Positions 10,220 to 32,715 of a stretch of 64,000 bases of DNA are shown here, in pieces (position 1 is the stretch's first letter; each line of letters starts with the position of its first letter). Where the stretch lies: positions 2,317,056 to 2,381,055 of the forward strand of contig NZ_AP026830.1 of NCBI RefSeq assembly GCF_026000775.1, in the 5' to 3' direction. Both the position numbers and the translations under genes were made by a program. The stretch comes from Vulcanisaeta souniana JCM 11219 (GTDB taxonomy: Archaea > Thermoproteota > Thermoprotei > Thermoproteales > Thermocladiaceae). The notes under the pieces are model-generated. The model did not search any database. It was given only the letters and a program-made list of their open reading frames with translations, and had not been told where the DNA came from.

Positions 10220-10555
10220 TTATACGCATCCTGTTGGTTTTGGCGCCCCTGCCACTTTACATGCTCCGTGGGCTGGTCCGTCTGGGAATAATTCGTATAT
10301 ACCCTCCAGTGATTCCCCAGTCTCCTTCGTAAGCATTTTTATTGGTGGACATACACCGTATGTCTCCCAGTACTGCCTGAGGTACTTGATCACCTTCCAA
10401 TGTCTCTCGGTCATTTGCTGCACACCTTCAAGATTCTTAGCCATCCACTCGGCGATCTTCTCATCCCAGATTTCGGGATTTTGCAGGAAGCAATCCTCGT
10501 CAAGCATTACTTTCTTTCCATTAACCTCGTACTCACCTGGACATGTGACTGGCAT
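10220..10555 (-). CDS. dsrC: DsrC sulfur-carrier protein
   Basis: DsrC accepts sulfur from DsrAB-bound sulfite as a trisulfide and passes it to membrane DsrMK. The 111-aa protein has the family sequence EDCFLQNPEIWDEKIAEWMA and the C-terminal arm HGACKVAGAPKPTGCV with both redox cysteines: Cys110 (next to last) and Cys99, 11 residues earlier. Both are needed in true DsrC, so this is a functional form rather than a TusE-like relative. An extra Cys5 and Cys22 are present. GGTGG precedes the ATG. The gene stands alone, with the shared palindrome at 10600-10618 and a TATA element near 10584-10595. Confidence 0.95.
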   Translation of the reverse strand: MPVTCPGEYEVNGKKVMLDEDCFLQNPEIWDEKIAEWMAKNLEGVQQMTERHWKVIKYLRQYWETYGVCPPIKMLTKETGESLEGIYELFPDGPAHGACKVAGAPKPTGCV

Positions 10556-10599: not shown

Positions 10600-10618
10600 T
10601 TACACGTATTAAGTGGAA
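10600..10618 (-). promoter_or_regulatory. Sulfate-island palindrome, dsrC promoter
   Basis: Minus strand: TTCCAC-TTAATAC-GTGTAA. It fits TTNCAC-N7-GTGNAA and lies directly upstream of the dsrC TATA element (TTTTTACATC). One of seven similar sites in the window. Confidence 0.6.
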
Positions 10619-14075: not shown

Positions 14076-14094
14076 TTACACATAGCACGTGATA
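14076..14094 (-). promoter_or_regulatory. Sulfate-island palindrome, dsrAB promoter
   Basis: Minus strand: TATCAC-GTGCTAT-GTGTAA, followed by TAAT and then the TATA element (AAAATAAAT). The right half (TATGTGTAATAAT) is the best conserved part among the seven sites. Confidence 0.6.
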
Positions 14095-14149
14095 TTATAC
14101 GTTAATAAAAACAGCGAACCTGCTCCCTCCTGGGGGCAGGATAAGGCTT

Positions 14150-14780
14150 TGAACCAGATATTCAGCATGCCTTTGGGAAGTATAAGTAAAGGCCAGGCAT
14201 TAATTCACTTGGCCTAAGGGAAGCGAGGTAGTATCGACGGACTTGAGGATAAACGCCTTGGCAAGCGTAATAATAAGTTACGGTACTTGGTTACTGTATA
14301 AGGGTGTTGGGACTGAGAAGGACTACTTCTACCTGCAGAGTAGGATTGCAGGGACTCAGCCGTTGGCAGATAGGATGAAAACCTTGGTGAATGGGACGCA
14401 TACCTAGAGCTGTTTAAGGAAAAGAGGAGGTTGTTCGGGGAAGTTAACCAGGCATCTCCTTCATTTGTAAGGAATGCTGGCGTAATTAATGCATTATAGT
14501 TGGTAGGTGGCATTGAACTTAAGGTTCAGGGGTACGGTATGAGATTGTTGGGTATAGCACCTCCGTTGAAGTAAAGAGGCGCCCTAGGGGTATGGTTAAT
14601 TGCCCGTTAGGTCACAGGCTTCAAAGTGTCCTTAACGGTTCAAACATTATTAAGGAGGGCATAGGAAAACAGTAATTGCAACTAAAAACGTTGTCATTCC
14701 TGTTCCTCATAACGGAGCGGTACCCGTGAAATGGATGTAACCCCGATACATCGGAAAATCCACCCCTCGGGACAAGGAGA
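14150..14780 (+). pseudogene. Remnant of an IS605-type TnpB/OrfB gene
   Basis: Multiple frames in this 850-bp gap preserve pieces of a TnpB-like nuclease: EKDYFYLQSRIAGTQPLADR near 14308-14367, LELFKEKRRLFGEV near 14405-14447, and a C-terminal NCP-GHRLQSVLNGS-NIIKEG zinc-ribbon segment near 14600-14660, then TVIATKNVVIPVPHNG. Several stops and frameshifts show it is dead. No intact transposase or clear ends remain. The element sits between dsrAB and the DsrE-like gene, so the sulfate island has been a landing site. Confidence 0.6.
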
Positions 14781-14898
14781 AGGGCAGTTAGCTTTCATAT
14801 GGATGAGGTATGGAGAAGCTCGATCTAAAGGCTATGATGTACTTGCATGGTTTACGTGAAATAAAACCAATAATTAAGCATGGCCAGTGTGGGTGCCG

Positions 14899-15258
14899 AT
14901 GAATGAGGATAAGGATAACAGGGTTGTTTTCTTCATAACCACGTCTCCCTCTGAGGAGGATCGAATCCAGGCCGTATTAAGGCTTTCATTGATCGCCTCC
15001 TCACTAGGTTATGAAGTCTTCATATACCTGGCGCTTCACTCGGTGGTTACGGTTAGGAAGAACACATTTGAGAAATTAAGTAGTACAACAAGGGACATGT
15101 TGAGGGACGCGATTAAGAATAATATCAGGATCATGGCGTGTAAAGTGGCCATGGAGGGCTTTAATGTTAAGGCTGAGGAGTTGATTGATGGCGTGATTGT
15201 TGCGGAACCCAAGGACCTCTTTGAAATCGCTAAGGGCTCTGTCCTTCTCTCCTGGTAA
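14899..15258 (+). CDS. DsrE/DsrF-like protein
   Basis: A 119-aa protein of the DsrE-like fold, a group that carries sulfur on a cysteine or binds other sulfur-transfer proteins. The family pattern is visible: VVFFITTSPSEEDRIQAVLRLSLIASSLGYEVFIYL at the N terminus, then MACKVAMEGFNVKAEELIDGV, which matches the 'aC..Sm...g...eeLidGv' core of DsrE2-type proteins. The cysteine in MACK is the likely active residue. The ATG at 14899 is preferred to 14887. The 3' end overlaps the opposite-strand gene by 29 nt. A role in sulfur transfer with DsrC is inference. Confidence 0.75.
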   Translation: MNEDKDNRVVFFITTSPSEEDRIQAVLRLSLIASSLGYEVFIYLALHSVVTVRKNTFEKLSSTTRDMLRDAIKNNIRIMACKVAMEGFNVKAEELIDGVIVAEPKDLFEIAKGSVLLSW

Positions 15259-15769
15259 TACTGCCTAGTAACTCTGAGAGATATCTCATGTAATTAAACC
15301 CTAAATCCTCTATTAAGCCCTCCATAAAGTTTTCATTAAATAATTCCTCAGTAATGGCTGCCTTTATGCCGCAAGCAACCATTGCCCTTTTATTACTTAC
15401 ATCAAGCCTAAGTGGGAATAAAAATGGTGCAATTGATCTATCTCCGTGTAGTTCATATCCAATCTTCGTTGTTAATTCCTCAAGGTCATTAAAAAGCTGG
15501 GCAATACTAGGGAATTCCTCGAGGTTAATATCCACTATGAGGTCTAGGTCGAGTAGTGCCAGGGACACGTAATCCTCCTCCTTAGCGGCATTTATCAGCA
15601 TTGGTTCACCACCTTGGACGTACAGTATCAAATTAACTTCCTCACCCGTCGACTTCATTATGTCATCAATAGCATCGGAAATACTGAGTTCCTCCAGGAA
15701 GCCGGAGTTCTTGGCTTTGTTTATTAATTCCGAGATCTCCTTTCTCTTCATATCATCCTCATTATTCAT
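15230..15769 (-). CDS. Hypothetical acidic protein next to dsrMK
   Basis: A 179-aa acidic soluble protein, not recognised. Predicted mixed alpha/beta: helices at residues 5-40, strand LILYVQGG near 47, LDLDLIVDINLEE near 72, and a C-terminal helix. One Cys (MVACGIK). It is divergent from dsrM with about 90 bp between them, so the palindrome at 15804-15822 could affect both genes. Convergent overlap with the DsrE-like gene. No function can be assigned. Confidence 0.55.
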   Translation of the reverse strand: MNNEDDMKRKEISELINKAKNSGFLEELSISDAIDDIMKSTGEEVNLILYVQGGEPMLINAAKEEDYVSLALLDLDLIVDINLEEFPSIAQLFNDLEELTTKIGYELHGDRSIAPFLFPLRLDVSNKRAMVACGIKAAITEELFNENFMEGLIEDLGFNYMRYLSELLGSITRREGQSP

Positions 15770-15803: not shown

Positions 15804-15822
15804 TTGCACATACTACGTGTAA
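15804..15822 (+). promoter_or_regulatory. Sulfate-island palindrome, dsrMK promoter
   Basis: TTGCAC-ATACTAC-GTGTAA. Its arms extend to TTGCACATA/TACGTGTAA with one central base, the most complete palindrome of the set. The dsrM TATA element (ATATTTTTTATG, 15825-15836) begins 3 bp downstream. Confidence 0.65.
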
Positions 15823-18098: not shown

Positions 18099-18221
18099 AT
18101 GTATATGAATAAGTTAGTATTTTTCTCATTAGAAAAAATATTATTTATATTTTATCATTACTCTGTGCAATTTCTGCATTAAGCAAACGACTTAATATCA
18201 AATGAATACATACGGATATTA

Positions 18222-19013
18222 ATGAAGAGTAACGATACCATAAACTCCCTGAGCATCATACCCGAAGAACTAAGGTTAGAACTTCGGAGACTTGTGAATG
18301 TGGAATATGACAATGTCGTAAATGACATGCTCGCCTATATCATCACAAGAGGGCTGGTAACCCTGTATAGGGTCTCCAGGGAGACCCCGTATAGTATCTC
18401 ATCAATTTACAAGAAGGCCAGGTATATGGTCAAGAATAACCTATTAACACCCAGGGAATCGAATGGTAGGTTAAATGGTAAGCACATGTACGAGGTAACG
18501 GTTAAGGGGTTAATAACTTGCTTAGCCTATAAATGCTTGGATGATGATGTGGTGCTGAGTAAGCTCAAGGTAAGATGGAATCTAAAGAATTATGATATGC
18601 ATAGGTTGGTGTCCATACTCACAGTACTGCCGTATATAGCTAGTAATGATAACCTAAGGGTGCTTGAAAACATAGATACATTAATGATAACAGCATTAAG
18701 TACATTAATTAATAACCCGACAATGATCAGTAAGCTCATTGATGAACGCACAATAACCAACGTGAAAAACACATCAATTTACTACTTAATAAATAACGTT
18801 ATAAATGGCATATCCAATAATAGAAAGCCAGACATAATACTTGGCAATAATTCATTCCTCGTGGGATACTATAAAAACAATAGGTCTCTCTATGTGTACA
18901 TATGTAGGCTGTGCGAGAAAAACTGCGTACTAGCATACATAACATGTAATAACGATCATGGATGTCCATTGACTACTGAACTAAGTAAAGATGTACTAAA
19001 TATAGTAAGATGA
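18222..19013 (+). CDS. Helix-turn-helix protein with cysteine cluster (paralogue A)
   Basis: A 263-aa protein that I cannot name. Residues about 40-85 form a helix-turn-helix (TLYRVSRETPYSISSIYKKA), then a wing-like segment. Six cysteines are shared with the paralogue at 24970: the pair in TCLAYKC (near residue 90) and CRLCEKNC plus a distal GC near the C terminus (about 230-250). Such spacing suits a zinc or iron-sulfur site. The gene stands alone between dsrMK and the apr-sat operon; its TATA (ACTTAATATC) is about 27 nt before the ATG. A regulator of the surrounding operons is the natural inference, not shown. Confidence 0.72.
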   Translation: MKSNDTINSLSIIPEELRLELRRLVNVEYDNVVNDMLAYIITRGLVTLYRVSRETPYSISSIYKKARYMVKNNLLTPRESNGRLNGKHMYEVTVKGLITCLAYKCLDDDVVLSKLKVRWNLKNYDMHRLVSILTVLPYIASNDNLRVLENIDTLMITALSTLINNPTMISKLIDERTITNVKNTSIYYLINNVINGISNNRKPDIILGNNSFLVGYYKNNRSLYVYICRLCEKNCVLAYITCNNDHGCPLTTELSKDVLNIVR

Positions 19014-19164
19014 TTGGTATTGTTTTTTAACTTATTAAAAACAATTAGCGAAATTGAAAAATCATTAAATAATGAAGCATGAATATTTAGTATTAAGTTA
19101 ATTTTAGTTTATATTTATTTATATTCATTATTATATTCACGTAATTATTTATAAGCATATAAAC

Positions 19165-19183
19165 TTTCACTATCTATGTGAAA
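19165..19183 (+). promoter_or_regulatory. Sulfate-island palindrome, aprM-aprBA-sat promoter
   Basis: TTTCAC-TATCTAT-GTGAAA, a perfect 6-bp inverted repeat with 7-bp spacer, followed by TAATG and a T-rich TATA element (19188-19197). The rest of the 195-bp gap 19014-19208 is AT-rich with nothing else clear. Confidence 0.65.
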
Positions 19184-19217
19184 TAATGCTTTTTTTAACT
19201 AAAGTAATATGAGACCG

Positions 19218-20075
19218 ATGTTCGAGTTATACCTACCAATACCACACCTATGGATAATATATGGCGCCATAGTGCTTGTTGTAGAGATGGTGATTGGCTT
19301 TGCAATCGAGATAAGCCGAGGCATATTGGCCCTCTCCCACCTGAGCAATGTACTACCCATAAAGGGGCCGACGAGGAATTGGGGCTCGGCGAGTGCATTT
19401 ATTGCTGGGCTAATTACGGCGTTCCTATACCCATTCTACGGTGCCCCCATGACATCTTGCCACACGCAAGCCACATACCTAAGCAAGCCCAAGGTTAAGG
19501 CACTAGCCCACGCACTTGTTTGGTGGGGATTCGTGTTTGCCGCAATATCAACAACACTGGGCTTCATCTATGACGAGTGGGTGTCAAGTGGTGTCCCAGG
19601 TCTCGTGGCCTTTATACCCGGCGGTAAACTTGGCCCAACCGGGCCATATGCAGTAATAGGCACTGGGGCAATTGGTGGTGTCCTCATTGTAATAGGCTTC
19701 ATACTCATGATGGTAACTAGGTGGCAAGACACTAGGTCGGTGAGCGAATCTGCAATTACGGATTTCTTCCTATGGACCGCATTCTTTGTTGCATTGAGTG
19801 GTTTCGGTATAATGGGTGTTGAACTCACAATCCCGACCAACTACTATGCATTGGCCACGGCATTTGGCGTACACATATTCCTGGTGGCCATGATGTTCGC
19901 CACAATGCCCTGGACAAAGTTTGGCCACGCTATATACATGTACATATGGCAATTGTATGATAAGTACAGGACTTGGAAGGGCGCTGAGCCTAGGCTACTT
20001 GGTCCATGGAGCGGTGAACTGGCTGAGAAGGCGCTTGAATCTCGTGTACCAAGTCATCCAAAGAGGCATGGGTGA
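19218..20075 (+). CDS. aprM: AprM-like membrane protein (APS reductase membrane partner)
   Basis: A protein of about 285 aa with six predicted membrane helices (near residues 8-32, 58-80, 95-120, 140-165, 182-205, 215-245) and candidate heme histidines in ALAHALVWW, FGVHIFLVA and KFGHAIYMY. It is the first gene of aprM-aprB-aprA-sat-orf. In organisms lacking QmoABC an AprM protein is thought to pass electrons from quinol to AprBA. The frame is open from 19209, but the TATA element centre near 19194 makes the ATG at 19218 the better leaderless start. The name rests on context and topology. Confidence 0.75.
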   Translation: MFELYLPIPHLWIIYGAIVLVVEMVIGFAIEISRGILALSHLSNVLPIKGPTRNWGSASAFIAGLITAFLYPFYGAPMTSCHTQATYLSKPKVKALAHALVWWGFVFAAISTTLGFIYDEWVSSGVPGLVAFIPGGKLGPTGPYAVIGTGAIGGVLIVIGFILMMVTRWQDTRSVSESAITDFFLWTAFFVALSGFGIMGVELTIPTNYYALATAFGVHIFLVAMMFATMPWTKFGHAIYMYIWQLYDKYRTWKGAEPRLLGPWSGELAEKALESRVPSHPKRHG

Positions 20076-20085
20076 GGTGGTGAGC

Positions 20086-20574
20086 ATGCCCTCTTATGTA
20101 ATCCCGGCAAAGTGTACAGGTTGCGGGGATTGCGTTAATGTATGTCCAAGCCATATAATGAAGTTCACGAAGTCAGGTGTATTCGGCAGGAAGGCGTACA
20201 ACGCAGAACCAGAGTCCTGCTGGGAGTGCTACAACTGCGTTAAGCACTGTCCACAAGGTGCCGTCCAGATGAGGGGCTACATGGACTTCACACCACTTGG
20301 TGGTGCCGTTGAGGTTTACAGGGATGAGAAGACCAATAGGGTTTACTGGACCATTAGATATAGGAATGGCACGGTTAAGTACTTCGTATTCCCAATAAGG
20401 ACCACGCCCTGGAACTCAATAAAGTCGCCACAGGAGTACCCAGAACCATCCAAGGAATTCTTGAGGGCGCCGTACTTATCCTGTGAGCATGAGAAGCTTG
20501 GTGGTAATAAACTTGGTGTTGAGCTACCTAAGACGAAGGTTCCAGAGGTAGTTAAGGTTGAGGTGAGGGGGTGA
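20086..20574 (+). CDS. aprB: Adenylylsulfate reductase beta subunit
   Basis: The 162-aa electron-transfer subunit of APS reductase has two [4Fe-4S] motifs, CTGCGDCVNVCP (near residue 10) and CWECYNCVKHCP (near 45), then a beta-sheet region and the C-terminal tail that wraps AprA. The frame is open from 19921 inside aprM, but homology begins at the ATG 20086, preceded by GAGGTGGTGA. It follows aprM by 10 nt and precedes aprA by 4 nt. Confidence 0.94.
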   Translation: MPSYVIPAKCTGCGDCVNVCPSHIMKFTKSGVFGRKAYNAEPESCWECYNCVKHCPQGAVQMRGYMDFTPLGGAVEVYRDEKTNRVYWTIRYRNGTVKYFVFPIRTTPWNSIKSPQEYPEPSKEFLRAPYLSCEHEKLGGNKLGVELPKTKVPEVVKVEVRG

Positions 20575-20578
20575 GAAT

Positions 20579-22483
20579 ATGACGAGGGTTAGGTATGTGG
20601 ATGCGGACATCCTAATAATTGGTGGTGGAATGGCTGGCGCGGGAGCTGCATGGGAGACTAGGTATTGGTGCAGGAATTGCAGAGTAGTACTTGCCGAGAA
20701 GGCGAATATTAATAGGAGCGGTGCAGTGGCAATGGGACTTTCGGCAATAAACACGTACATGGGGCTTAAGTGTAAGGAGAATACCGTGGAGGATTACGTT
20801 AAGTACGTGAGGGGTGACTTAATGGGTATTGTGAGGGAGGACTTGGTATATGACTACACGAGACACGTTGACTCAACAGTGCACTTATTCGATGAGTGGG
20901 GTCTCCCAATATGGCCCGAGCCTAAGACTGGGTGCTATGTTAGGGAGGGTAAGTGGCAGATAATGATTCATGGAGAGTCCTACAAGCCAATAGTTGCTGA
21001 GGCTGCTAGGAAGGCCCTTGGTGATGAAAACATATTGAATAGGGTCATGGTTACTCACCTAATAAAGAGCGCAAGCGATCCGAATAGGATTGTTGGTGCC
21101 CTAGGCTTTAATGTTAATGACGGAACATTCTATGTATTTAGGGCAAAGGCAACAATACTTGCTGCCGGCGGCGGTTCACAAATATACAGGCCCAGATCGC
21201 AGAGCGAAGGACTTGGCAGAAGCTGGTATCCACCATGGTCCTCGGCCTCATCCTACGGCATGCTCATTGAGGCTGGTGCCGTAATGACAATGATGGAGGC
21301 GAGATTCGTAGTGCCGAGATTCAAGGATGGCTATGGCCCAGTTGGCGCCTATCAATTATTGCTTAAGACAAGGATTAGTAATGCCTATGGTCAGGACTTC
21401 TGGAAGCCCCATGTTGACGAAATAAGGAAACTATATAGCGGCAAGGGTAAGTACGTAGACCTACCAATCACACCAACAACACTCAGGGTATTTGCACAAC
21501 GCCTTGAGTGGATGGCTGGTCGCGGGCCGAGTCTAATGAGAACCGAGGAAACAGTGAAGAGAGGCACTGAAAGTGAGGCCATGGCCTATGAGGACTTCCT
21601 AGACATGACAATAAGTCAAGTTGTCATATGGGCTGGGCAGAACCATGAACCATCAGAGAGACCTTATGAGGTGATCACCACGGAGCCTTACGTAATGGGT
21701 AGCCACGCCACTGAGTGCGGTGCATGGTCCAGTGGTCCTGAGGATCTGGCACCCAGGAAGATCGAGGGCTTACCAGACGATAGGGGATACCAGTATTACT
21801 GGGGTTATAATAGGATGACGACTCTGGATGGCTTATTCTGCGCAGGTGATGCTTGCGGTGCTAATCCACATAAGTTCAGTAGTGGTTCATTCACGGAGGG
21901 CAGGTTAGCAGGTAAGTCAGCAGTACTATACGTGATGGACCACAGTGATGAGAAGATAGACGTGGATAGGGCTCAAGTCGATTCGTTAATAGCCAAGATA
22001 ATGGAGCCACTGGAGCGTTACCAGAGGGGTAGGTACAATGTCGTTACCGGACCAAGTTACATGCACCCAGTGGACCCAACAAAGATGTATTGGAAACAGG
22101 GCTTGTTTAGGCTTCAGAAGATAATGGATGAATACGCAGGTGGCTGGTCAACAATGTACATGACCAACGAGTGGATGCTCAACAGGGGTTTAGAACTACT
22201 ACAGTTCCTTAAGGAGGACCTCGTGAATTATGCCGCTGCCCAGGATTGGCATGAGTTAATGAGGGTTTGGGAGCTTTGGCACAGGATATTGTCTGCGGAG
22301 GCCGTGATTAGGCACATGCTGTTTAGGAAGGAGACCAGGTGGCCTGGTTACTACGTTAGGGCAGACTACCCGGCGCTGGATGATGATAATTGGCATGTAT
22401 TCGTTAACTCAAGGTATGATGCAAAGACTGGGCAGTGGGAAGTATGGAAAGTGCCTGTGATACACATAATAGAGTTCCCATGA
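20579..22483 (+). CDS. aprA: Adenylylsulfate reductase alpha subunit
   Basis: AprA reduces adenosine 5'-phosphosulfate to sulfite and AMP at FAD. The 634-aa protein has the dinucleotide fold ADILIIGGGMAGAGAAW at residues 9-25, the EKANINRSGAVAMGLSAINTY flavoprotein motif near 42, and the C-terminal helical domain. The second FAD-contact segment GLFCAGDACG near residue 420 is intact. Length and motif order match archaeal AprA. It is translated with aprB and sat. Confidence 0.95.
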   Translation: MTRVRYVDADILIIGGGMAGAGAAWETRYWCRNCRVVLAEKANINRSGAVAMGLSAINTYMGLKCKENTVEDYVKYVRGDLMGIVREDLVYDYTRHVDSTVHLFDEWGLPIWPEPKTGCYVREGKWQIMIHGESYKPIVAEAARKALGDENILNRVMVTHLIKSASDPNRIVGALGFNVNDGTFYVFRAKATILAAGGGSQIYRPRSQSEGLGRSWYPPWSSASSYGMLIEAGAVMTMMEARFVVPRFKDGYGPVGAYQLLLKTRISNAYGQDFWKPHVDEIRKLYSGKGKYVDLPITPTTLRVFAQRLEWMAGRGPSLMRTEETVKRGTESEAMAYEDFLDMTISQVVIWAGQNHEPSERPYEVITTEPYVMGSHATECGAWSSGPEDLAPRKIEGLPDDRGYQYYWGYNRMTTLDGLFCAGDACGANPHKFSSGSFTEGRLAGKSAVLYVMDHSDEKIDVDRAQVDSLIAKIMEPLERYQRGRYNVVTGPSYMHPVDPTKMYWKQGLFRLQKIMDEYAGGWSTMYMTNEWMLNRGLELLQFLKEDLVNYAAAQDWHELMRVWELWHRILSAEAVIRHMLFRKETRWPGYYVRADYPALDDDNWHVFVNSRYDAKTGQWEVWKVPVIHIIEFP

Positions 22484-22493
22484 GGTGACCAGC

Positions 22494-23870
22494 ATGAGTC
22501 TCAAGATCCATACACCACCTCCACACGGGGGCAGGCTCGTGGATGCAGTAATTAGGGATAAGGATAAGGCCATTAACATGGCTGCTGGCGCAATACCATA
22601 CGACATAAGGGCCACTAGGGATCCCGTGAGTGGTTTACCCATTAGGAATGTATATAGGGAGATTATGTCAATTGCCTACGGTTTCTTCAGCCCACTGGAC
22701 AGGTTCATGACTAGGAATGAGACTGAGAATGTGCTTAGGGAGAGGAGACTCCTTGATGGTTGGTTATTCCCATACCCAATGATATTCGACGTTACGGAGG
22801 AGGACCTTAGGAAACTCGGTGTTAAGGAACATGATAGATTGTTGCTTAGGCTTAAGGGTCAGCCCTTTGCAGTCCTCGATGTCGAGGAGATCTGGAGATT
22901 TGATCCTAAGGATCTGGCTGACAGAACCTTCGGGACCCCTGATAGAAACCCTGAGGTCGTTAAGAGAAGATTTGACGAGAAGCACCCAGGTTGGTTAATA
23001 TATAGGAGCATGACTGGTATTGCATTGGCTGGCAAGGTTTATGTTGTCAATGAGCCCGTGTTTAAGGACCCATATGGTAGGTTCTGGTATCCGCCGGCTA
23101 AGTCCCGTGAGGAGATGCAGAGGAGGGGTTGGAGGACCGTGATTGCCCACCAGACTAGGAATGTTCCGCATACAGGCCATGAGCACTTAATGAAGAACGC
23201 GGCTTACCTTGGTGATATCGAGCCGTGCCATGGAATACTCGTTAATGCCATAATCGGTGCCAAGAGACTTGGGGATTTTGTTGATGAGGCAATACTCGAG
23301 GGTCATGAAGCAATTAATAAGTATGGCTATATAAGCCCGAAGAGACACATCGTCACCTTCACCCTATGGGACATGAGGTACGGCAACCCACTTGAGTCAC
23401 TGCTCCATGGCATAATTAGGCAGAACATGGGTTGCACACATCACATGTTTGGCAGGGATCACGCTGCCGTGGGTGATTACTACGATCCATACGCAACACA
23501 AATACTTTGGGAGAAGGGCATACCGAGTTTCGGCCTAAATGCGCCGCCTTATGATCTCGATAAGGGTCTCAAGATTAGGCCTGTTAACATTAAGGAGTTT
23601 TGGTACTGCCCGAAGTGTGGTGAGATAGCCTATAGCGACACATGCGCCCATTCGGACATGGCCCAGAGGTTTAGTGGTAGTTTCATTAGGGGTTTGATTG
23701 CTGAGGGTGTTGAGCCACCGCCAATAATCTTTAGGCCCGAGGTTTATAGGGTGATTGTTAAGTGGTGGAGGTTCTATGGTTACCCATTCGTTAATAGGAA
23801 GTACCTTGAGTTAAAGGAGAGGGAGCTTGAGGTCGAGGTACTGCAAATGGAGGTTCCGGTGAAGAGGTGA
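22494..23870 (+). CDS. sat: ATP sulfurylase (sulfate adenylyltransferase)
   Basis: Sat activates sulfate with ATP to form APS, the AprBA substrate. The 458-aa protein has an N-terminal PUA-like domain, the catalytic QTRNVPHTGHEH motif (HxGH) near residue 222, GRDHAAVGDY near 318 and a C-terminal zinc-binding CPKCGEIAYSDTCAH segment near 375. The ATG at 22494 is preferred because GAGGTGA lies 5 nt upstream; the GTG at 22485 is inside this ribosome-binding region. Confidence 0.95.
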   Translation: MSLKIHTPPPHGGRLVDAVIRDKDKAINMAAGAIPYDIRATRDPVSGLPIRNVYREIMSIAYGFFSPLDRFMTRNETENVLRERRLLDGWLFPYPMIFDVTEEDLRKLGVKEHDRLLLRLKGQPFAVLDVEEIWRFDPKDLADRTFGTPDRNPEVVKRRFDEKHPGWLIYRSMTGIALAGKVYVVNEPVFKDPYGRFWYPPAKSREEMQRRGWRTVIAHQTRNVPHTGHEHLMKNAAYLGDIEPCHGILVNAIIGAKRLGDFVDEAILEGHEAINKYGYISPKRHIVTFTLWDMRYGNPLESLLHGIIRQNMGCTHHMFGRDHAAVGDYYDPYATQILWEKGIPSFGLNAPPYDLDKGLKIRPVNIKEFWYCPKCGEIAYSDTCAHSDMAQRFSGSFIRGLIAEGVEPPPIIFRPEVYRVIVKWWRFYGYPFVNRKYLELKERELEVEVLQMEVPVKR

Positions 23871-23875
23871 TGGAG

Positions 23876-24244
23876 ATGCCCTACAAGATCTCCGTAATAC
23901 TGGATAAATCCAGGTTGGAGAGGATCAGGGGTACACCATTGGAGAGGATGGTTAAGGATCTATATGGTGGTTATCTAAAGGTTATTGAGGTAGAGGTACC
24001 TGATGAAGTCGCTCAGCGGATCTTGAAGGAGTTTCCGAGGGCTAGGATTGACGCTAGAGGCTTCATTGAGGAGACGCCGGTGGCCTTTAAGAGAGAGCTC
24101 TTTGAGGTGATCGCTCAGTTGAGGAGTATTGGTAGGGAGGTCTTTGATGAGTTACTGAAGCCCGAGAGACTTGGTATAATTAAGGAGTTGGCGGCTAAGG
24201 AGGAAGAGTACCTGCCACCACCAACCTTACCCGAAGAGAAGTGA
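23876..24244 (+). CDS. Unknown protein at the end of the apr-sat operon
   Basis: A 122-aa charged soluble protein (MPYKISVILDKSRLERIRG...) with no recognised motif and no cysteine. It starts 5 nt after the sat stop codon with GAGGTGA overlapping the sat end, so it is translationally linked to sat. The C terminus is acidic and proline-rich (EEEYLPPPTLPEEK). The co-transcription points to a job with Sat or AprBA, such as assembly or electron-partner docking, but this is inference. A T-rich run at 24250-24261 may end the operon. Confidence 0.65.
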   Translation: MPYKISVILDKSRLERIRGTPLERMVKDLYGGYLKVIEVEVPDEVAQRILKEFPRARIDARGFIEETPVAFKRELFEVIAQLRSIGREVFDELLKPERLGIIKELAAKEEEYLPPPTLPEEK

Positions 24245-24300
24245 TATGTTTGGTTTTTATTTAAAAATTAATCTTAATTAATTTATTCAGGTTCTTTACT

Positions 24301-24888
24301 ATGTTTCATAGTTATGAAACAGAGTTTATTAAGGTGCTGAGGACTGAGCTTAGGAATTTAGGAACTGAAATTACTGACGAACAACTTGATAAGATAAAGG
24401 TATGCATCAGCGAACTAAAGAGGAGACACTTGCCCCTAAGCGATGCTAGGGATGTGGCTAGGATAATTGCCCAGGTACTTTCCGAAAACCCGTTAATTGC
24501 ATCAACAAGGGAGGACGTTAGGCAGTTCCTCTCGGTAATAAGTTCCTGTAGGTTAGTGGGTTTTCAATTACGTAGGCATGAGTCAATATACTGCCCAATA
24601 ATGGTTCCCATGGGTTTCATAGGTGTCTCAATAATAGCAGTAATGGCTCGTCTAGGCAGTATTTCCCTAATTATTAAGAGGGTTGGTGAACCCGTGAGCG
24701 ATAATGCCTTCTACGCCGAGGACTTAATATTAGTTGGTTACTTCGATACAAATAATCTCACGTGGACTCAGCGATTAAACCCGGGAATTTATCTTGTTGA
24801 GGTTAGTAATTCATATGGTGAGGATGTTAATATCAGTATCGACGTGATAACATGCATATTAGAAACCCGAGAAAATCATCAGGAATAA
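24301..24888 (+). CDS. Hypothetical protein with one membrane helix
   Basis: A 195-aa protein. The N-terminal half (residues 1-90) is helical and charged, a hydrophobic segment at about 98-122 (CPIMVPMGFIGVSIIAVMARLG) is a likely membrane helix, and the C-terminal 70 residues look like a beta-sandwich (IYLVEVSNSYGEDVNISIDVI). Four or five cysteines are spread along it. It lies between the apr-sat operon and the second Cys-rich regulator. Not recognised; no function assigned. Confidence 0.6.
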   Translation: MFHSYETEFIKVLRTELRNLGTEITDEQLDKIKVCISELKRRHLPLSDARDVARIIAQVLSENPLIASTREDVRQFLSVISSCRLVGFQLRRHESIYCPIMVPMGFIGVSIIAVMARLGSISLIIKRVGEPVSDNAFYAEDLILVGYFDTNNLTWTQRLNPGIYLVEVSNSYGEDVNISIDVITCILETRENHQE

Positions 24889-24969
24889 ACTCAATGTATA
24901 CTCGTACTTATAAGGATATTTATTTAATGCATCTTATGCACTGAGCAAATCATATTTATTCAACTGAAT

Positions 24970-25800
24970 ATGCACATAATTGATGAGCATATGTTAATGA
25001 ATAAAAACTACATAAGCAATGGGATAAGTCGACTACTTCAAAAAACAATCGTCTCAGACATGGAAATCGATGATACAATTAAGGAATTATTAACATACAT
25101 TATTTATAATGAACCAATAACACTATACAGAATTTCCAAAAATACTAGGTTTGCTGTGTCAACAATATACAAGAAAGCCAAGAGGATGATCCAATATGGA
25201 TTAATAAGGCCATTGAATGATGATGAATTTGGCGGCGAAAGGTGTGTTTACGTGTCCACGGTTAAGGGTCTTCTAACATGTCTAGCCATTAATTGCATTG
25301 ACGATCCAGGCATTGTTATAAGTAGGTTATGCCAGAGGTGGCATTTAAAGAGTTATTGCTGCCAAAGGGCAATGAAAATATTGAGTGTAATGCCGGTATT
25401 ACTTGGCATTGATAGTAATGCCCTGAGGATGATTGAAGACCCCAGGGCAATAATGATCTCAATACTTGAGCATAGGGACCAACTAAGGAAAAGTCTCAAT
25501 CCTGATCTACTGGATGATGTGATTAACACGGCAACGCATTACTTGATCAGCAGGTTAATCATTGATAGTGACATAACCACAAAGTCATCATTACTTGTGG
25601 GTAACGAGAGATTTGTAGTGAACATTGACATTAACGGCAGCGCCTATGTATATGTTTGTAAACTCTGCGAGAAGTCATGCATGAATATTACTATACCAAG
25701 TGATTCCAATGGATGTGCCCTATTTCATGAGATTAGAAGGTTAGGGATTTGGATCCGCCCACAATCGCCATTGAGCCATCAAAAATCAATCATTGTTTAA
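24970..25800 (+). CDS. Helix-turn-helix protein with cysteine cluster (paralogue B)
   Basis: A 276-aa paralogue of the protein at 18222. The two align over the HTH (TLYRISKNTRFAVSTIYKKA), the TVKGLLTCLAINCIDD segment and the C-terminal SAYVYVCKLCEKSC...GC motif. Shared elements are six cysteines, in a CX4C pair and a CX2CX3C plus distal Cys. Paralogue B has extra cysteines (RLCQRW, SYCCQR). It is encoded directly before the SUMT-dsrN operon, itself headed by the shared palindrome. ATG 24970 or ATG 24991 may be the start. Probable metal- or redox-sensing DNA-binding protein; not demonstrated. Confidence 0.72.
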   Translation: MHIIDEHMLMNKNYISNGISRLLQKTIVSDMEIDDTIKELLTYIIYNEPITLYRISKNTRFAVSTIYKKAKRMIQYGLIRPLNDDEFGGERCVYVSTVKGLLTCLAINCIDDPGIVISRLCQRWHLKSYCCQRAMKILSVMPVLLGIDSNALRMIEDPRAIMISILEHRDQLRKSLNPDLLDDVINTATHYLISRLIIDSDITTKSSLLVGNERFVVNIDINGSAYVYVCKLCEKSCMNITIPSDSNGCALFHEIRRLGIWIRPQSPLSHQKSIIV

Positions 25801-25820
25801 TTATTTAAGTGAGTGAGGTT

Positions 25821-25839
25821 TTTACATGCTACGTGAAAT
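25821..25839 (+). promoter_or_regulatory. Sulfate-island palindrome, SUMT-dsrN promoter
   Basis: TTTTAC-ATGCTAC-GTGAAA, one base off TTNCAC in the left arm, then TAATCATTATTTAATG with the TATA element at about 25843-25854. It ties siroheme-related genes to the dsr and apr promoters. Confidence 0.6.
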
Positions 25840-27897: not shown

Positions 27898-28572
27898 TTA
27901 ATTAAGTATATAGTCATTACCACACTGCATTGCCAGTATCCTAGCCTTATTGCCATTATCCATGAATGCCACCGACTTGCAACCATTAATATCCGTTGTG
28001 GGGAAGTAATCAACTAACGCCTTCGCAATTACCCTCCTAGCCCTACTAACGGTATTCGCATCCCCATACATATTAATTAATGCCTCATACAGCGAATTAA
28101 AGGCGGCAAGCCTAAGGTTATTGGGTAATATGAATAGAACGTTCTTAGGAAACTCCTGATATAACATTATGAGCCCATTACTGAGCCTTTCCCTGCCACT
28201 CAGGTAAAGTAATTTTACATAACTCTCAACCTCATCATCACTGAACCCTATTAAGCCCCAGTTACCCTTAATGGCCCCAATCACTGCCTGGGCAGTATCC
28301 TCATTTATACCATCAATATTCATAAAATACGCAAAAAGAAGTAACAAATATCCACCCAAACTTACCAAGTACCTACTCCTGCTAATTCTTTTCAGCAATC
28401 CCATCATCTCCAGTTCAGAGATCTTCCTGTAAAACGTCGCCTTACTAACATGCCCCGCCAATGACAACCACAATGGGTTTGGACCACCATCTCTCGTAGT
28501 CTCACGAATAGTGTGAAGAATAAACTTCAAAATCATCAAATGCGTAATATCAATATCAATGCCAGGTATCAT
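27898..28572 (-). CDS. Third helix-turn-helix protein of the island
   Basis: A 224-aa protein with an HTH at about residues 35-65 (GHVSKATFYRKISELEMMGLLKR) followed by a helical domain. The layout recalls the two Cys-rich proteins but the cysteine cluster is reduced to two residues near the C terminus (NGC, MQC). It is convergent with dsrN and ends 1-2 nt from it. The promoter carries a half-site, GTGAAATAAG on the minus strand (28604-28613), directly upstream of a GTATTTTTAG TATA element, and the transcript would be leaderless. Probably a regulator with a different signal. Confidence 0.6.
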   Translation of the reverse strand: MIPGIDIDITHLMILKFILHTIRETTRDGGPNPLWLSLAGHVSKATFYRKISELEMMGLLKRISRSRYLVSLGGYLLLLFAYFMNIDGINEDTAQAVIGAIKGNWGLIGFSDDEVESYVKLLYLSGRERLSNGLIMLYQEFPKNVLFILPNNLRLAAFNSLYEALINMYGDANTVSRARRVIAKALVDYFPTTDINGCKSVAFMDNGNKARILAMQCGNDYILN

Positions 28573-29152: not shown

Positions 29153-29171
29153 TTTCACGTGCATTGTGGAA
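29153..29171 (+). promoter_or_regulatory. Sulfate-island palindrome upstream of the 29.2-kb gene
   Basis: TTTCAC-GTGCATT-GTGGAA fits the consensus exactly. A TATA element (TTAATAAATAC) begins about 5 bp downstream, the same spacing as at the other sites. Confidence 0.55.
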
Positions 29172-29205
29172 TAGTATTAATAAATACTTTTACATAAATA
29201 TTATT

Positions 29206-29919
29206 GTGAGCAATGCAAGCATAATAAATAATATTATTGATAATGCAATAACTAAGGTTAAACTATTCGAGCCTAATTCATTAATTAGAGAGAAGGCTGA
29301 CTTATTCGTTAAAATTCACTTAGTTCCTACGGAGCAATTAATCAAAATAGAGAAAGGCGTGGTAATTCCCACTACATACATAATTGACCTAGCCGTAATA
29401 AGCCCCTCGGTAACACGAATTAAGGATTACCTGGACATGCATGAAAAGGATTCCCTAAGCCTTGGCAGGAGAATGAGTAATGTTAAGGATAGGGAACGAT
29501 TAATCACTGATTATATAGATTTAATCATAGGTACATTGAGGTTTTTCAAGGATTACTTCATATGCAGGCATGTCCTTGATCACATTGTCTGGGCCTACGA
29601 TGAGATTATGAATAATAATACAGTGATTGGGTTATTTAGGAATAAGTTTAAGGATGATAGGGAGGTTGATAAGGTCTTAAACGAGTTGTCTAAGCATGTT
29701 GTTGCTTCAATCACTGATTTCTACAGTGGGTTGAGGAAGTGGGTTCTTAGTAATGAGTTAAGGAAGCCTTCATATACGCAGTACTTCATAGTTAATGAAG
29801 TATTAAGAAGGCTCTCACCCAATGAATATTTAATAGTCATTGAAGCCAATGAGGATTATTTCTACTTAGGACTTCTTAGGGACGTCTCATTAACGAACAC
29901 TATAATTAAGTTAAGTTAA
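29206..29919 (+). CDS. Hypothetical protein under the shared palindrome
   Basis: About 237 aa, mostly helical and charged, with one cysteine (YFICRHVLDH) and no membrane helix. Not recognised. The frame is open from 29164, but that start lies inside the palindrome; the TATA element at about 29176-29186 predicts a leaderless start at the GTG 29206. Because its promoter matches those of dsr, apr and sat, this gene is a candidate new member of the sulfate-respiration regulon. Confidence 0.6.
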   Translation: MSNASIINNIIDNAITKVKLFEPNSLIREKADLFVKIHLVPTEQLIKIEKGVVIPTTYIIDLAVISPSVTRIKDYLDMHEKDSLSLGRRMSNVKDRERLITDYIDLIIGTLRFFKDYFICRHVLDHIVWAYDEIMNNNTVIGLFRNKFKDDREVDKVLNELSKHVVASITDFYSGLRKWVLSNELRKPSYTQYFIVNEVLRRLSPNEYLIVIEANEDYFYLGLLRDVSLTNTIIKLS

Positions 29920-30320
29920 TAATGAATCCATGTAAGGCAGCTTCATCCATTTCTATAATAATATTGAATTACCAAGACAAATAATCTACTAACATCAATA
30001 ACCTGGCAGTAATTCATGGTAGTAACGCCCTACTACTTATTTGCTAATTTTGTAATTAATGACAGGACAAAACCAATGCTTAATAGGTCTTGTATATAAA
30101 TGGATATAAATAAGCTTATTGGCTTATTATTGAAGCTATTTTTATACTTTTATATTCTATTCCCTTATTAATTTAATTTTTATAGGTATCTGTTAAGAAA
30201 TATGTGTAATATAATTGAAAGTTATTTATTTATTTCTGAATAGATTATTAAATTATTTTACATAAAACGTGATAATACGTGTAATAATGTTTATATATCG
30301 TGAAGTCAAGTTTTTGACTG
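29920..30320. other. AT-rich intergenic region before tauE
   Basis: About 400 bp of AT-rich DNA without a convincing frame on either strand. Apart from the palindrome and half-site at 30256-30288 and the TATA element at 30289-30299 I see nothing in it. Confidence 0.5.
30256..30288 (+). promoter_or_regulatory. Palindrome plus extra half-site, tauE promoter
   Basis: TTTTAC-ATAAAAC-GTGATA at 30256-30274 resembles the other sites with two deviations. A second right half, ACGTGTAATAAT, follows at 30277-30288 and abuts the TATA element GTTTATATATC. The doubled arrangement is unique in the window. Confidence 0.5.
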
Positions 30321-31736
30321 ATGATCACCGTAATATTCGATCTACTAAAGATGCTGGAATTCGTAATCGCAGGTATTGTGGCTGGCTTACTCGGTGCCCT
30401 GGCTGGGCTTGGCGGTGGCGTTGTTTTAACGCCAGTATTAACGTTGTTCCTGAGCGTACCAATAATATACGCCACGGGCTCCGCATTAATATCGACAATA
30501 TCCACATCAGCCGGCTCAGCCAGTGTATATGTCAAGAAGAGACTAGCCAATGACAGGATAGGCATTAGCCTAGTCACCGCAACAACCACGGGTGCAATAA
30601 TAGGTTCATTAACAGCAAATTTCGTATATGCACACGGCCTCACTTGGATCATATATGTAATATTTGGCGTAGTACTACTGGCTTCAATAGTGCCAACGGT
30701 GCAAAGGAGCACTTGTGAATTACCGCCACTAAGGGACCCGGATCGAACAACCAAGGTCTTCAAACTCTATGGAGTGTGCTATGACCCAGCACTAAAGATT
30801 TGGTATAAGTATTGGGGTGTTCGTTGGTGGCTCGGCTGGCTTATCATGCTCTTCGCTGGCTTCATTAGTGGGTTATTGGGTATTGGTAGTGGGGCCCTTA
30901 AGGTCCTTGCCATGGATTGGGGAATGAACTTGCCCATGAAGGTGAGTACAACAACGAGTAACTTCATGATAGGAGTGACAGCGGCGACTAGCGGCTCGCT
31001 ATATTGGTTCTTTGGGTACATAAGTCCATTCATAGCTGCATGCACGGCGATTGGTGTCCTGCTTGGTTCGAGGATTGGCACTAGGATGCTCATGTACGTG
31101 ACCAATAGGCAGGTTAGGTGGGTCTTTGTATCGATACTGGCTTATTTGGGCTTTAGGATGGTTCTTAGGGGTCTCGGTAGGGAGGGCATGCTGCCGATAA
31201 CGTCAATGGAAAGAAACATAGTGGCTGCAGTATTCGCATCGATAATAATAATTTCCCTCTACTTCGTATTCACGTACAAGTACCAGGAAACCCAAGACAT
31301 GACGCTGAGTATTTACCAGGCTCAGCAGGAGAATCCGGGAAAGATTGAGCTTAAGTTCATAAATATAACGAGTAATCTCCTTAAGTACGGCGTCTTCATA
31401 AGTATCGCGCTATTAATTCTCGGTCTTATACTCATCTTTGTTCATGGTGGTGGATTGGGAATACCGCTTAATAAGATCGTTGATCCCAATGGACATGTTG
31501 ATACCTCGGCAATATCGATAATGAGCGTTGTTGTTGGTGATTTAAGGCTTGATGGGCTAAGCCTAATGCTAACAGGGTTATTGGTTTTAATAGCAATACC
31601 GGTGATCATGGTTTCACTAAACCTCGCTAGGTTCGCCATGGAGAGAGATGTACTATATACAGTACTTGCAGCAATAACCCTGGTCAACCTGTTCCTCGCA
31701 ATATTCGTACTTCCGGTAATAATACTTCATGTGTAG
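30321..31736 (+). CDS. TauE/SafE-family exporter with C-terminal DUF1634 domain
   Basis: A 471-aa integral membrane protein. Residues about 10-310 form the TauE/SafE permease with the two repeats typical of the family: GLLGALAGLGGGVVLTPVLT near 20 and SGLLGIGSGALKVLAM near 185. Residues about 345-470 add a three-helix DUF1634-like region. TauE/SafE proteins move sulfite, sulfoacetate or related anions. The leaderless ATG is 27 nt after the TATA centre. Regulation by the shared palindrome and a second TauE/SafE gene next door support sulfur oxyanion transport; direction is unknown. Confidence 0.82.
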   Translation: MITVIFDLLKMLEFVIAGIVAGLLGALAGLGGGVVLTPVLTLFLSVPIIYATGSALISTISTSAGSASVYVKKRLANDRIGISLVTATTTGAIIGSLTANFVYAHGLTWIIYVIFGVVLLASIVPTVQRSTCELPPLRDPDRTTKVFKLYGVCYDPALKIWYKYWGVRWWLGWLIMLFAGFISGLLGIGSGALKVLAMDWGMNLPMKVSTTTSNFMIGVTAATSGSLYWFFGYISPFIAACTAIGVLLGSRIGTRMLMYVTNRQVRWVFVSILAYLGFRMVLRGLGREGMLPITSMERNIVAAVFASIIIISLYFVFTYKYQETQDMTLSIYQAQQENPGKIELKFINITSNLLKYGVFISIALLILGLILIFVHGGGLGIPLNKIVDPNGHVDTSAISIMSVVVGDLRLDGLSLMLTGLLVLIAIPVIMVSLNLARFAMERDVLYTVLAAITLVNLFLAIFVLPVIILHV

Positions 31737-31746
31737 GGTGCTTAAA

Positions 31747-32715
31747 ATGTATGTAGTTACCCAAGCCCTGGCAAACCTGGGCTTAATAGCAGTTTGTGGC
31801 TTAGGAGCTGGCATACTCGGGGGACTACTTGGGCTCGGTGGTGCCGTTATACTAACGCCACTATTAACAATTCTGCTTAACCTGCCAATACAGTACTCCG
31901 CCGGCATTAGTCTCGTGTCTGCAATATCCACGTCAATAATGGCTGGCTCCAGGTTCCTGAGGATGGGCTTACCAAACACTAAGGTTTTCATAGCATTATC
32001 CTCAGCAGGCACCACTGGAGCCATAATGGGGTCGTTGATGGCGTACCACATAATAAACTCGGGCTATAACTGGATCCTTTACCTAGTGTTTAGTGGTGTC
32101 ATGTACATGGCAATGGCCCTCGTGGCAAGGCCCAAGCAACACGTGGTAACGGCATTACCAGTAGACGTAAGGGATTCCTACGTAGTCACCGGGTCCTACC
32201 TGGACCAGGCCCTGAAGGTCTATGTGAACTACGGAATACGAAGAAGCAACCTACTCAAGGCATGGGGAGTTATGCTCTTTGGAGGCGTGATATCGGGCCT
32301 CCTTGGGATCGGAGGCGGGCCAATAAACATGCTAGCCCTGTACTGGGCTGCCGAGATGCCGATAAAGGTTGCTTCAGCAACCAGCAACCTAATAGTCGGG
32401 GCCACGGCGGCAACCAGCGGAACACTTTACTGGTTCTTTGGTTATATACAGCCGTTCATGGCCATGGCATCAGTGATAGGCATAGTGATTGGCGCAAACA
32501 TATCAACGCACATACTACCCAAGGCCAGGGGATCCACAATAAAGATACTACTGCTCTCAATATTCTCATACCTAGCATACAGAATGCTACTATCTGGATT
32601 GAAGAGGGGAGGGATCTTCGTATTGCCAACAGGCATTGAGTATGTAACGTCGTTCATGGTACTAATAATAACACTGGGAATACTATTTGCATTGCGTAAA
32701 TACATTAATGATTAA
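31747..32715 (+). CDS. Second TauE/SafE-family membrane protein
   Basis: A 322-aa paralogue of the preceding protein without the DUF1634 tail. It keeps both repeats (GAGILGGLLGLGGAVILTPLL near residue 22; VISGLLGIGGGPINMLALYW near 185) and seven to eight membrane helices. It starts 10 nt after the first gene ends, so the two are co-transcribed and may form a hetero-oligomer or serve different substrates. The ATG at 31747 is preferred over the upstream open frame. Confidence 0.82.
   Translation: MYVVTQALANLGLIAVCGLGAGILGGLLGLGGAVILTPLLTILLNLPIQYSAGISLVSAISTSIMAGSRFLRMGLPNTKVFIALSSAGTTGAIMGSLMAYHIINSGYNWILYLVFSGVMYMAMALVARPKQHVVTALPVDVRDSYVVTGSYLDQALKVYVNYGIRRSNLLKAWGVMLFGGVISGLLGIGGGPINMLALYWAAEMPIKVASATSNLIVGATAATSGTLYWFFGYIQPFMAMASVIGIVIGANISTHILPKARGSTIKILLLSIFSYLAYRMLLSGLKRGGIFVLPTGIEYVTSFMVLIITLGILFALRKYIND

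Follow-up and report, generated by a model that had tools for sequence, protein, structure and literature searches.

A candidate pair of winged-helix regulators with a C-terminal cysteine module in the dsr/apr island of Vulcanisaeta

Two paralogous candidate regulator genes and their cysteines

The window analysed here, i.e., a stretch of 64,000 nucleotides from Vulcanisaeta souniana JCM 11219 (contig NZ_AP026830.1, positions 2,317,056 to 2,381,055), is part of a complete genome of 2.43 Mb and carries an island of genes for sulfate/sulfite respiration in which two putative regulator genes, hereafter HTH1 and HTH2, are embedded. The gene order runs from dsrC, dsrBA, a DsrE-like gene, dsrM and dsrK to HTH1, continues with a QmoC-like gene, aprB, aprA, sat, a DUF6955 gene and an unknown up to HTH2, and proceeds to a cobA-like tetrapyrrole methylase gene, a CbiA/DsrN-like gene, a third helix-turn-helix (HTH) gene, a further unknown and two exporter genes of the TauE family; these names derive from family searches for some genes and from reading of the sequences for the rest. 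HTH1 (P0001, 263 amino acids; 18222..19013, plus strand) lies between dsrMK and qmoC-aprBA-sat, and HTH2 (P0002, 276 amino acids; 24970..25800, plus strand) between aprBA-sat-DUF6955 and cobA-dsrN. An initial annotation of this DNA had described the open reading frames at 18222 and 24970 as HTH paralogues, each placed between operons headed by a common palindrome. The coordinates and a pairwise identity of 35% over 234 residues (E = 2e-44) agree with the former statement, and the latter arrangement was seen for both genes.

Only these two places matched in the whole genome, i.e., no third close copy of HTH1/HTH2 was found in its 2.43 Mb. Orthologues of HTH1 were present in the dsr-bearing Vulcanisaeta genomes examined, and both genes were syntenic in those with intact islands, the closest named relative locus being that of Vulcanisaeta sp. 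UBA163 (G058), from the same genus; the species names used here for the other compared genomes are those which we take to apply. Between close relatives, a dN/dS of about 0.22 for both genes indicated purifying selection. In the phylogenetic tree, HTH1 and HTH2 formed two clades (support for the HTH2 clade, 93/93), each comprising the gene-bearing Vulcanisaeta species with the exception of the divergent G061, which diverges ahead of the two clades and carries one copy, located in the HTH1 position. Because of this branching order, the sequences place the duplication that gave rise to the pair within Vulcanisaeta.

Structure prediction of each protein with AlphaFold2, from input alignments of three rows drawn from the window and the UBA163 locus, supported the HTH assignment. 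A winged helix with the element order helix-helix-helix-strand-strand was predicted at residues ~31–92 of HTH1 (18312..18497, plus strand) with a predicted local distance difference test (pLDDT) of ~80–90, and at residues ~35–96 of HTH2 (25072..25257, plus strand) with a pLDDT of 86–92, so that both models combine the helix-turn-helix and the wing expected of a winged-helix DNA-binding protein. Values dropped to ~60–75 in the helical middle part and to below 60 in the strand-rich C-terminal module. Foldseek searches with both models retrieved the winged helices of MarR, ZitR and F-93, all with weak scores (E = 0.002–0.1), and none of these matches was a full-length structural analogue. No Pfam or NCBIfam family scored above its cut-off for P0001 or P0002. 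The best Pfam echo was PF22194 (F-93_WHD), with 25.3 bits for P0002 (E = 1.6e-5) and 14.4 bits for P0001 against a cut-off of 28; it was also weakly matched by 12 members of a family alignment that comprised 23 relatives from Vulcanisaeta, Pyrobaculum, Thermoproteus and a neighbouring genus. Likewise, the PDB yielded no relative when searched with profiles of the full family or of the C-terminal module alone. We propose that these proteins constitute a distinct family.

HTH1 and HTH2 share six cysteines, namely C100, C105, C228, C231, C235 and C248 in P0001 and C104, C109, C230, C233, C237 and C249 in P0002, which fall into the motif pairs TCLAYKC/TCLAINC and CRLCEKNC/CKLCEKSC plus a distal GC in both. 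The first two correspond to the CLAYKC pair C100/C105 of HTH1 (18519..18536, plus strand) and the CLAINC pair C104/C109 of HTH2 (25279..25296, plus strand). The remaining four make up a C-terminal module, hereafter Cys4, which is spaced C228-x2-C231-x3-C235-x12-C248 in HTH1 (18903..18965, plus strand) and C230-x2-C233-x3-C237-x11-C249 in HTH2 (25657..25716, plus strand). The set of six that the initial annotation had pointed out was kept in 16 out of 16 full-length Vulcanisaeta proteins aligned, with one extra C-terminal cysteine in HTH1 orthologues and three extra ones in the middle domain of HTH2 orthologues. Outside this genus, only the C-terminal four are invariant: they are among the 9 invariant columns of the 23-sequence alignment, while the TCLAxxC pair is kept in only part of the wider family and is dispensable in Pyrobaculum relatives. 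In Vulcanisaeta, the dsr-island proteins have their Cys4 residues spaced as C-x2-C-x3-C-xn-C; the pattern C-x2-C-x5-C-x4-C is that of Pyrobaculum and also of a third G061 paralogue. The relatives from Caldivirga and Thermoproteus tenax are shorter and lack the module, with a CLAxxC-like cysteine pair being retained.

A palindrome upstream of sulfur operons and its co-variation with the regulators

The palindrome has the core TTnCAC-N7-GTGnAA and a longer form, TTATTnCAC-N7-GTGnAATAA. Its position at the head of the island operons, as initially annotated, was borne out by pattern searches: seven sites with at most one mismatch were found in the window compared to 1.9 expected, a number reached by one of 100 shuffles, and a tighter pattern gave 11 sites genome-wide, six of them in the island, compared to two for the reversed pattern. 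Within the window, sites were located upstream of dsrC (10220–10555, minus strand; site TTACACGTATTAAGTGGAA at 10600..10618, also found before dsrC in other Vulcanisaeta), dsrAB (14032–11655, minus strand; 14076..14094) and the dsrE-like gene at 14887 (14843..14861, with one mismatch), between the divergent unk15230 (minus strand) and dsrMK (plus strand) (15804..15822), and upstream of qmoC-aprBA-sat-DUF6955 (TTTCACTATCTATGTGAAA, 19165..19183), the cobA-like and dsrN/cbiA-like genes (25820..25838) and the unknown gene at 29164 (TTTCACGTGCATTGTGGAA, 29153..29171). Together with a weaker site (two mismatches; 30256..30274) upstream of the exporter genes at 30321–32715, assigned to the TauE family by Pfam, eight sulfur-island promoters in the window carry the palindrome. 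At the promoters in the window, a T-rich TATA-like box follows a few bases after the right arm, GTGnAATAA.

Outside the island, sites precede an NAD-binding gene of the siroheme-synthase type, a gene for an SQR-like oxidoreductase and a DsrE gene followed by FlpD/HdrA genes. In other Vulcanisaeta genomes, all three are found again ahead of the orthologues, at equal distances in the case of the SQR-like and DsrE-Hdr sites, and in V. distributa an SQR gene is located within the island with its own box ahead of it. A further site, at genome position 1858062, falls within a coding gene and was taken as a chance match. Another one is located between a gene for a YeeE/YedE-type sulfur transporter and a cysteine-containing open reading frame of 96 amino acids and unknown function (G000:C1:362110; L141).

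The palindrome and the regulator family co-occur across genera. A weight matrix trained on 44 Vulcanisaeta sites only gave scores of 17.6–26 at the dsrA/dsrB promoters of Caldivirga and of the genus g3 (0 of 300 shuffles each) and of up to 18.4 at the promoter shared by the HTH gene and dsrC in Caldivirga. In Pyrobaculum, a variant, TTATTnCC-N8-GGnAATAA, was found at about −54 to −31 relative to the dsrA, dsrM, dsrC and aprB/qmoC start codons, with the same outer arms and a CC/GG-type centre that is one base shorter; allowing at most two mismatches, it had 36 matches compared to two in the reversed sequence. In line with this, no variant site was found at the dsr genes of the Pyrobaculum genomes G065, G066 and G071, in which dsrAB is present and the Cys4 regulator is absent. 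The recognition helix differs in parallel, being S[IA]S[ST][IV]YKKA-like in Vulcanisaeta and HFSH[AV]YRKA-like in Pyrobaculum, and is nearly identical in HTH1 and HTH2. No observation argues more strongly for the palindrome being read by this family than this correlative co-variation of operator and regulator, and on such comparative grounds HTH1 and HTH2 appear to be the best candidates for its reader.

The promoters of the two regulator genes have a different box in common, which is GTGCAATTTCTGCAT for HTH1 (18165..18179) and ATGCATCTTATGCAC for HTH2 (24927..24941). This TGCA box, GTGCAA-N3-TTGCAC or a near variant (RTGCAW-N3-WTGCAY), was present at all Vulcanisaeta copies in both island positions, and when the retrieved island sequences of Vulcanisaeta were searched strictly, it occurred near HTH1 and HTH2 only. 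Its halves look like half-sites of the palindrome in everted order. Since the two promoters share this separate box, auto-regulation or cross-regulation of HTH1 and HTH2 is suggested.

Linkage of the family to dsr and apr genes

A profile of the Cys4 module was run against 398 Thermoproteota genomes and detected 26 proteins in 17 genomes at E < 1e-6, the next best match having an E value of 1.8e-4. In this set, the module was confined to proteins of this winged-helix family in dsr/apr islands. Co-occurrence with dsrAB had been named as a check in the initial annotation, and members were not found mostly in genomes without dsr genes: dsrA is present in 15 of the 17, G076 has apr without dsrA, and the incomplete assembly of G058 contains pieces of dsrMK, dsrC and sat. 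The association of Cys4 proteins with dsrA gave a Fisher p value of 8e-7 among 81 genomes of the class and of 0.009 in the order, in which dsr is widespread; for the family and dsrA or aprA, it was 1e-4 among 45 genomes of the order. Members adjoin dsrAB, dsrC, dsrMK, dsrN, sat or apr in Vulcanisaeta, Caldivirga, g3, g4, Pyrobaculum and Thermoproteus, with the neighbours changing from genus to genus (dsrAB in Pyrobaculum, dsrMK in g8, dsrC in Caldivirga and T. tenax, dsrN/dsrB in g3, sat/apr in others). A Thermoproteus side branch of shorter relatives (L125, L132, L133) without dsr linkage is an exception. HTH1 and HTH2 themselves combine the N-terminal winged helix, the four C-terminal cysteines and the location in a dsr/apr cluster that characterize the proposed dsr-associated Cys4 winged-helix family.

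More distant members, which keep C-terminal cysteines of their own, flank genes for split-Soret cytochromes and PhsA/TtrA-like molybdenum reductases. For instance, the winged-helix gene of L179 is divergent beside a gene for a split-Soret cytochrome c / C_GCAxxG_C_C protein, and relatives in L178, L180 and L181 have neighbours of similar size. The third winged-helix gene beside the island (27898–28572, minus strand) is conserved in Vulcanisaeta and falls into a sister clade whose members flank the PhsA/TtrA-like reductase genes elsewhere; this copy has lost the last C-terminal cysteines of its clade. It was rejected as a reader of the palindrome because it belongs to a different clade and lacks a full Cys4.

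Several other features of the region were recorded. The stretch at 14100–14860, between dsrA and the DsrE-like gene, has few genes and broken reading frames, possibly reflecting a decayed mobile element, and its counterpart in other Vulcanisaeta holds SQR or DsrK-like genes. Two conserved unknowns of the island (24301–24888 and 29164–29919) are without any family match; several Vulcanisaeta genomes contain a duplicate of the latter gene, the start of which is marked by a strong palindrome. The protein encoded at 15230–15769 (minus strand), with no Pfam or NCBIfam match, has homologues of 27–29% identity directly after dsrB in Pyrobaculum and T. tenax (L119, L121, L122, L123), and by its sequence and position it qualifies as a previously unrecognised dsr-associated protein. 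Finally, a second dsrAB is present in G061, and a different contig of this genome holds a second dsrMK accompanied by its own regulator of the Pyrobaculum-type Cys4 spacing (L106, L107); these possibly represent a single acquired island.

Candidate mechanism, alternatives and comparison with known systems

Taken together, we consider it probable that HTH1 and HTH2 are new dimeric winged-helix regulators of sulfate/sulfite respiration in Thermoproteales which bind the palindrome and bear a C-terminal cysteine sensor. A dimer of HTH1 and/or HTH2 would occupy TTATTnCAC-N7-GTGnAATAA directly upstream of the TATA box, so that the operons for dsr, apr, sat, siroheme modification and sulfur export would be switched together as a single regulon. 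The four C-terminal cysteines would form the sensor site, which probably holds a metal cluster, a [4Fe-4S] cluster being the most likely one, and the redox or reactive-sulfur state at this site would alter DNA binding. Archaeal activators usually have their operators just upstream of TATA, and the position of the palindrome flush upstream of TATA makes activation slightly likelier than repression, although repression is nearly as likely because one arm overlaps the B recognition element (BRE). The regulator genes, transcribed from promoters with the separate box, would in turn be under mutual or auto-regulation. A broader scenario is distinctly more tentative and, in our estimation, has well below an even chance of being correct: Thermoproteales would possess their own class of winged-helix [4Fe-4S] sensors, with the Vulcanisaeta paralogues acting on one regulon, probably as homo- and heterodimers, and cross-regulating through their separate box, and with sister clades controlling other anaerobic respirations (molybdenum S/N-oxide reductases, split-Soret cytochromes).

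A number of observations weigh against the proposal that HTH1 and HTH2 read the palindrome and sense through Cys4. In Vulcanisaeta, the palindrome does not head HTH1 or HTH2 themselves; the genus g4 has a relative, and no recognisable box was found there by the matrix scan; the boxes of T. tenax (G077) are weak only; and the Pyrobaculum variant is noisy genome-wide. The archaeal BRE matches the outer AATAA arms, and their symmetry at divergent promoters could in part be due to it. That the palindrome is nothing but a symmetric BRE of divergent promoters was rejected, since both arms are also present at the non-divergent dsrC, qmoC and cobA promoters and the inner CAC..GTG does not belong to the BRE. 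In Caldivirga and g3, the palindrome is retained even though their relatives are devoid of the C-terminal Cys4, which indicates that the module is necessary neither for DNA recognition nor for a regulon. As for the sensor, the C-terminal module, and with it the placement of its cysteines, is modelled with low confidence, and the iron-sulfur assignment is an argument from cysteine spacing.

With regard to the cofactor, C-x2-C-x3-C-xn-C and C-x2-C-x5-C are spacings of known [4Fe-4S] sites, i.e., those of molybdenum-bis(pyranopterin guanine dinucleotide) enzymes and of FNR and WhiB. We favour [4Fe-4S] over zinc or a thiol switch because the spacings match these ligand sets and there is a single CxxC, unlike in ordinary zinc ribbons; judged by sequence, the cluster would be the likeliest of the three, zinc would come next and a thiol switch last. 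The zinc alternative retains the regulators and the palindrome and makes the Cys4 tail a structural zinc site, serving dimerisation or the heat stability of the fold, with the signal being read by a ligand of the middle domain or by CLAxxC. It deserves attention, though we regard it as unlikely overall: four invariant cysteines with one CxxC would also suit zinc, weak Pfam zinc-finger echoes of the module were obtained (PF18585, E = 0.011; PF13824, E = 0.022), and the Caldivirga relatives without the module retain box and linkage, whereas the presence of a single CxxC knuckle where two are usual, the [4Fe-4S]-type spacings and the position of distant members beside anaerobic reductase genes speak against it. 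Less likely still is a metal-free thiol or polysulfide switch, in which sulfane sulfur, sulfite or an oxidant would bridge the cysteines and release the DNA, as in SurR or sHdrR/SoxR. This would fit the linkage and a regulon of sulfur genes, and there are precedents in two related cysteine-bearing winged-helix repressors of sulfur genes in a bacterium (PMC12423496) and in the sulfur-responsive CXXC switch of SurR (PMC7278568). However, the known switches use two cysteines, and the four that are invariant here exceed what a disulfide needs and are a typical metal ligand set. The SurR-type arrangement of a CXXC in the winged-helix domain was not found, the cysteines after the wing being C-x4-C and the CxxC sitting in the C-terminal module.

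The identity of the reader may also be questioned, as linkage is no proof of regulation and the Vulcanisaeta HTH1 and HTH2 promoters are without the palindrome and alone have another box. The palindrome could thus be read by another, unlinked factor, with HTH1 and HTH2 acting mainly on their own genes via the TGCA box, or on a few other promoters. We hold this to be rather improbable in view of the palindrome in the shared HTH/dsrC promoter of Caldivirga, the Pyrobaculum variant that tracks the presence of the Cys4 regulator, the near-identical recognition helices and the resemblance of the everted TGCA half-elements to the half-sites of the palindrome. That the proteins are chromatin-type or selfish winged-helix proteins of F-93-like, viral origin carried along with the island would account for their best Pfam echo, below cut-off as it is. 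Nevertheless, purifying selection on both copies, their synteny in dsr-bearing Vulcanisaeta with intact islands, the dsr/apr linkage across the order and the conserved sensor-like module leave very little room for this view.

The open-access literature searched named no regulator for the dsr or apr genes of Thermoproteota, and a prior mention in the Vulcanisaeta sulfate-reduction literature is possible; the control of archaeal sulfate respiration thus appears to be open, and the system proposed here so far undescribed. Our analysis supplies a candidate regulator family, a candidate operator and a target list that includes siroheme cofactor genes, along with a natural variant system in Pyrobaculum, where operator and regulator differ together, and therefore the question can be directly tested with one purified protein and a 25-bp DNA. 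It also assigns a likely function to proteins which currently match no family model. As DsrAB-based metabolism is ancient, such a control system bears on its wiring in hot-spring lineages.

Functionally, the closest systems are MsvR, HcpR, sHdrR/SoxR and SurR, none of which is a family match. MsvR has a V4R-type effector domain; in HTH1 and HTH2, no V4R domain was found by Pfam at E values up to 1 (P0001, P0002) or up to 0.05 (23 members). In methanogens, it acts as an archaeal redox-sensitive DNA-binding regulator whose binding is tuned by cysteines (PMC7278568). The nearest curated winged-helix profile, that of F-93 from the virus SSV1 (PF22194; PDB 1tbx), describes a DNA-binding domain of ~100 amino acids only, without the helical or Cys4 domain of HTH1 and HTH2. 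HcpR, of the CRP/FNR family, is a predicted regulator of the sat and apsAB operons of Desulfovibrio via a palindrome (PMC545781). Both cases have a palindrome before sat/aps-type operons of sulfate reducers; HcpR differs in being bacterial, in its palindrome (TTGTGAnnnnnnTCACAA) and in its CRP/FNR architecture, no CRP-type/cNMP-binding-like domain having been matched by Pfam in HTH1 or HTH2, whose HTH is N-terminal. The related ArsR-type repressors sHdrR and SoxR of Hyphomicrobium respond to sulfane sulfur and share a common sulfur regulon (PMC12423496). They resemble the present pair, i.e., two related cysteine-bearing winged-helix proteins for one sulfur regulon (here a proposed one), yet they serve bacterial sulfur oxidation, form a sulfur bridge with two conserved cysteines and have the ArsR fold. 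In our searches, the ArsR model had no match in P0001 or P0002, and MarR was matched only weakly by 2 of the 23 members. SurR is an ArsR-type protein that adjusts electron-transfer genes to sulfur through palindromic sites near TATA. In Thermococcales, its CXXC switch is sulfur-responsive (PMC7278568). This CXXC is located in the DNA-binding part, unlike the C-terminal Cys4 module of HTH1 and HTH2, and the targets of SurR concern elemental-sulfur reduction and hydrogen production rather than dsr/apr; what SurR and the pair have in common is an archaeal winged-helix regulator with cysteines, a set of sulfur-related genes and palindromes near TATA.

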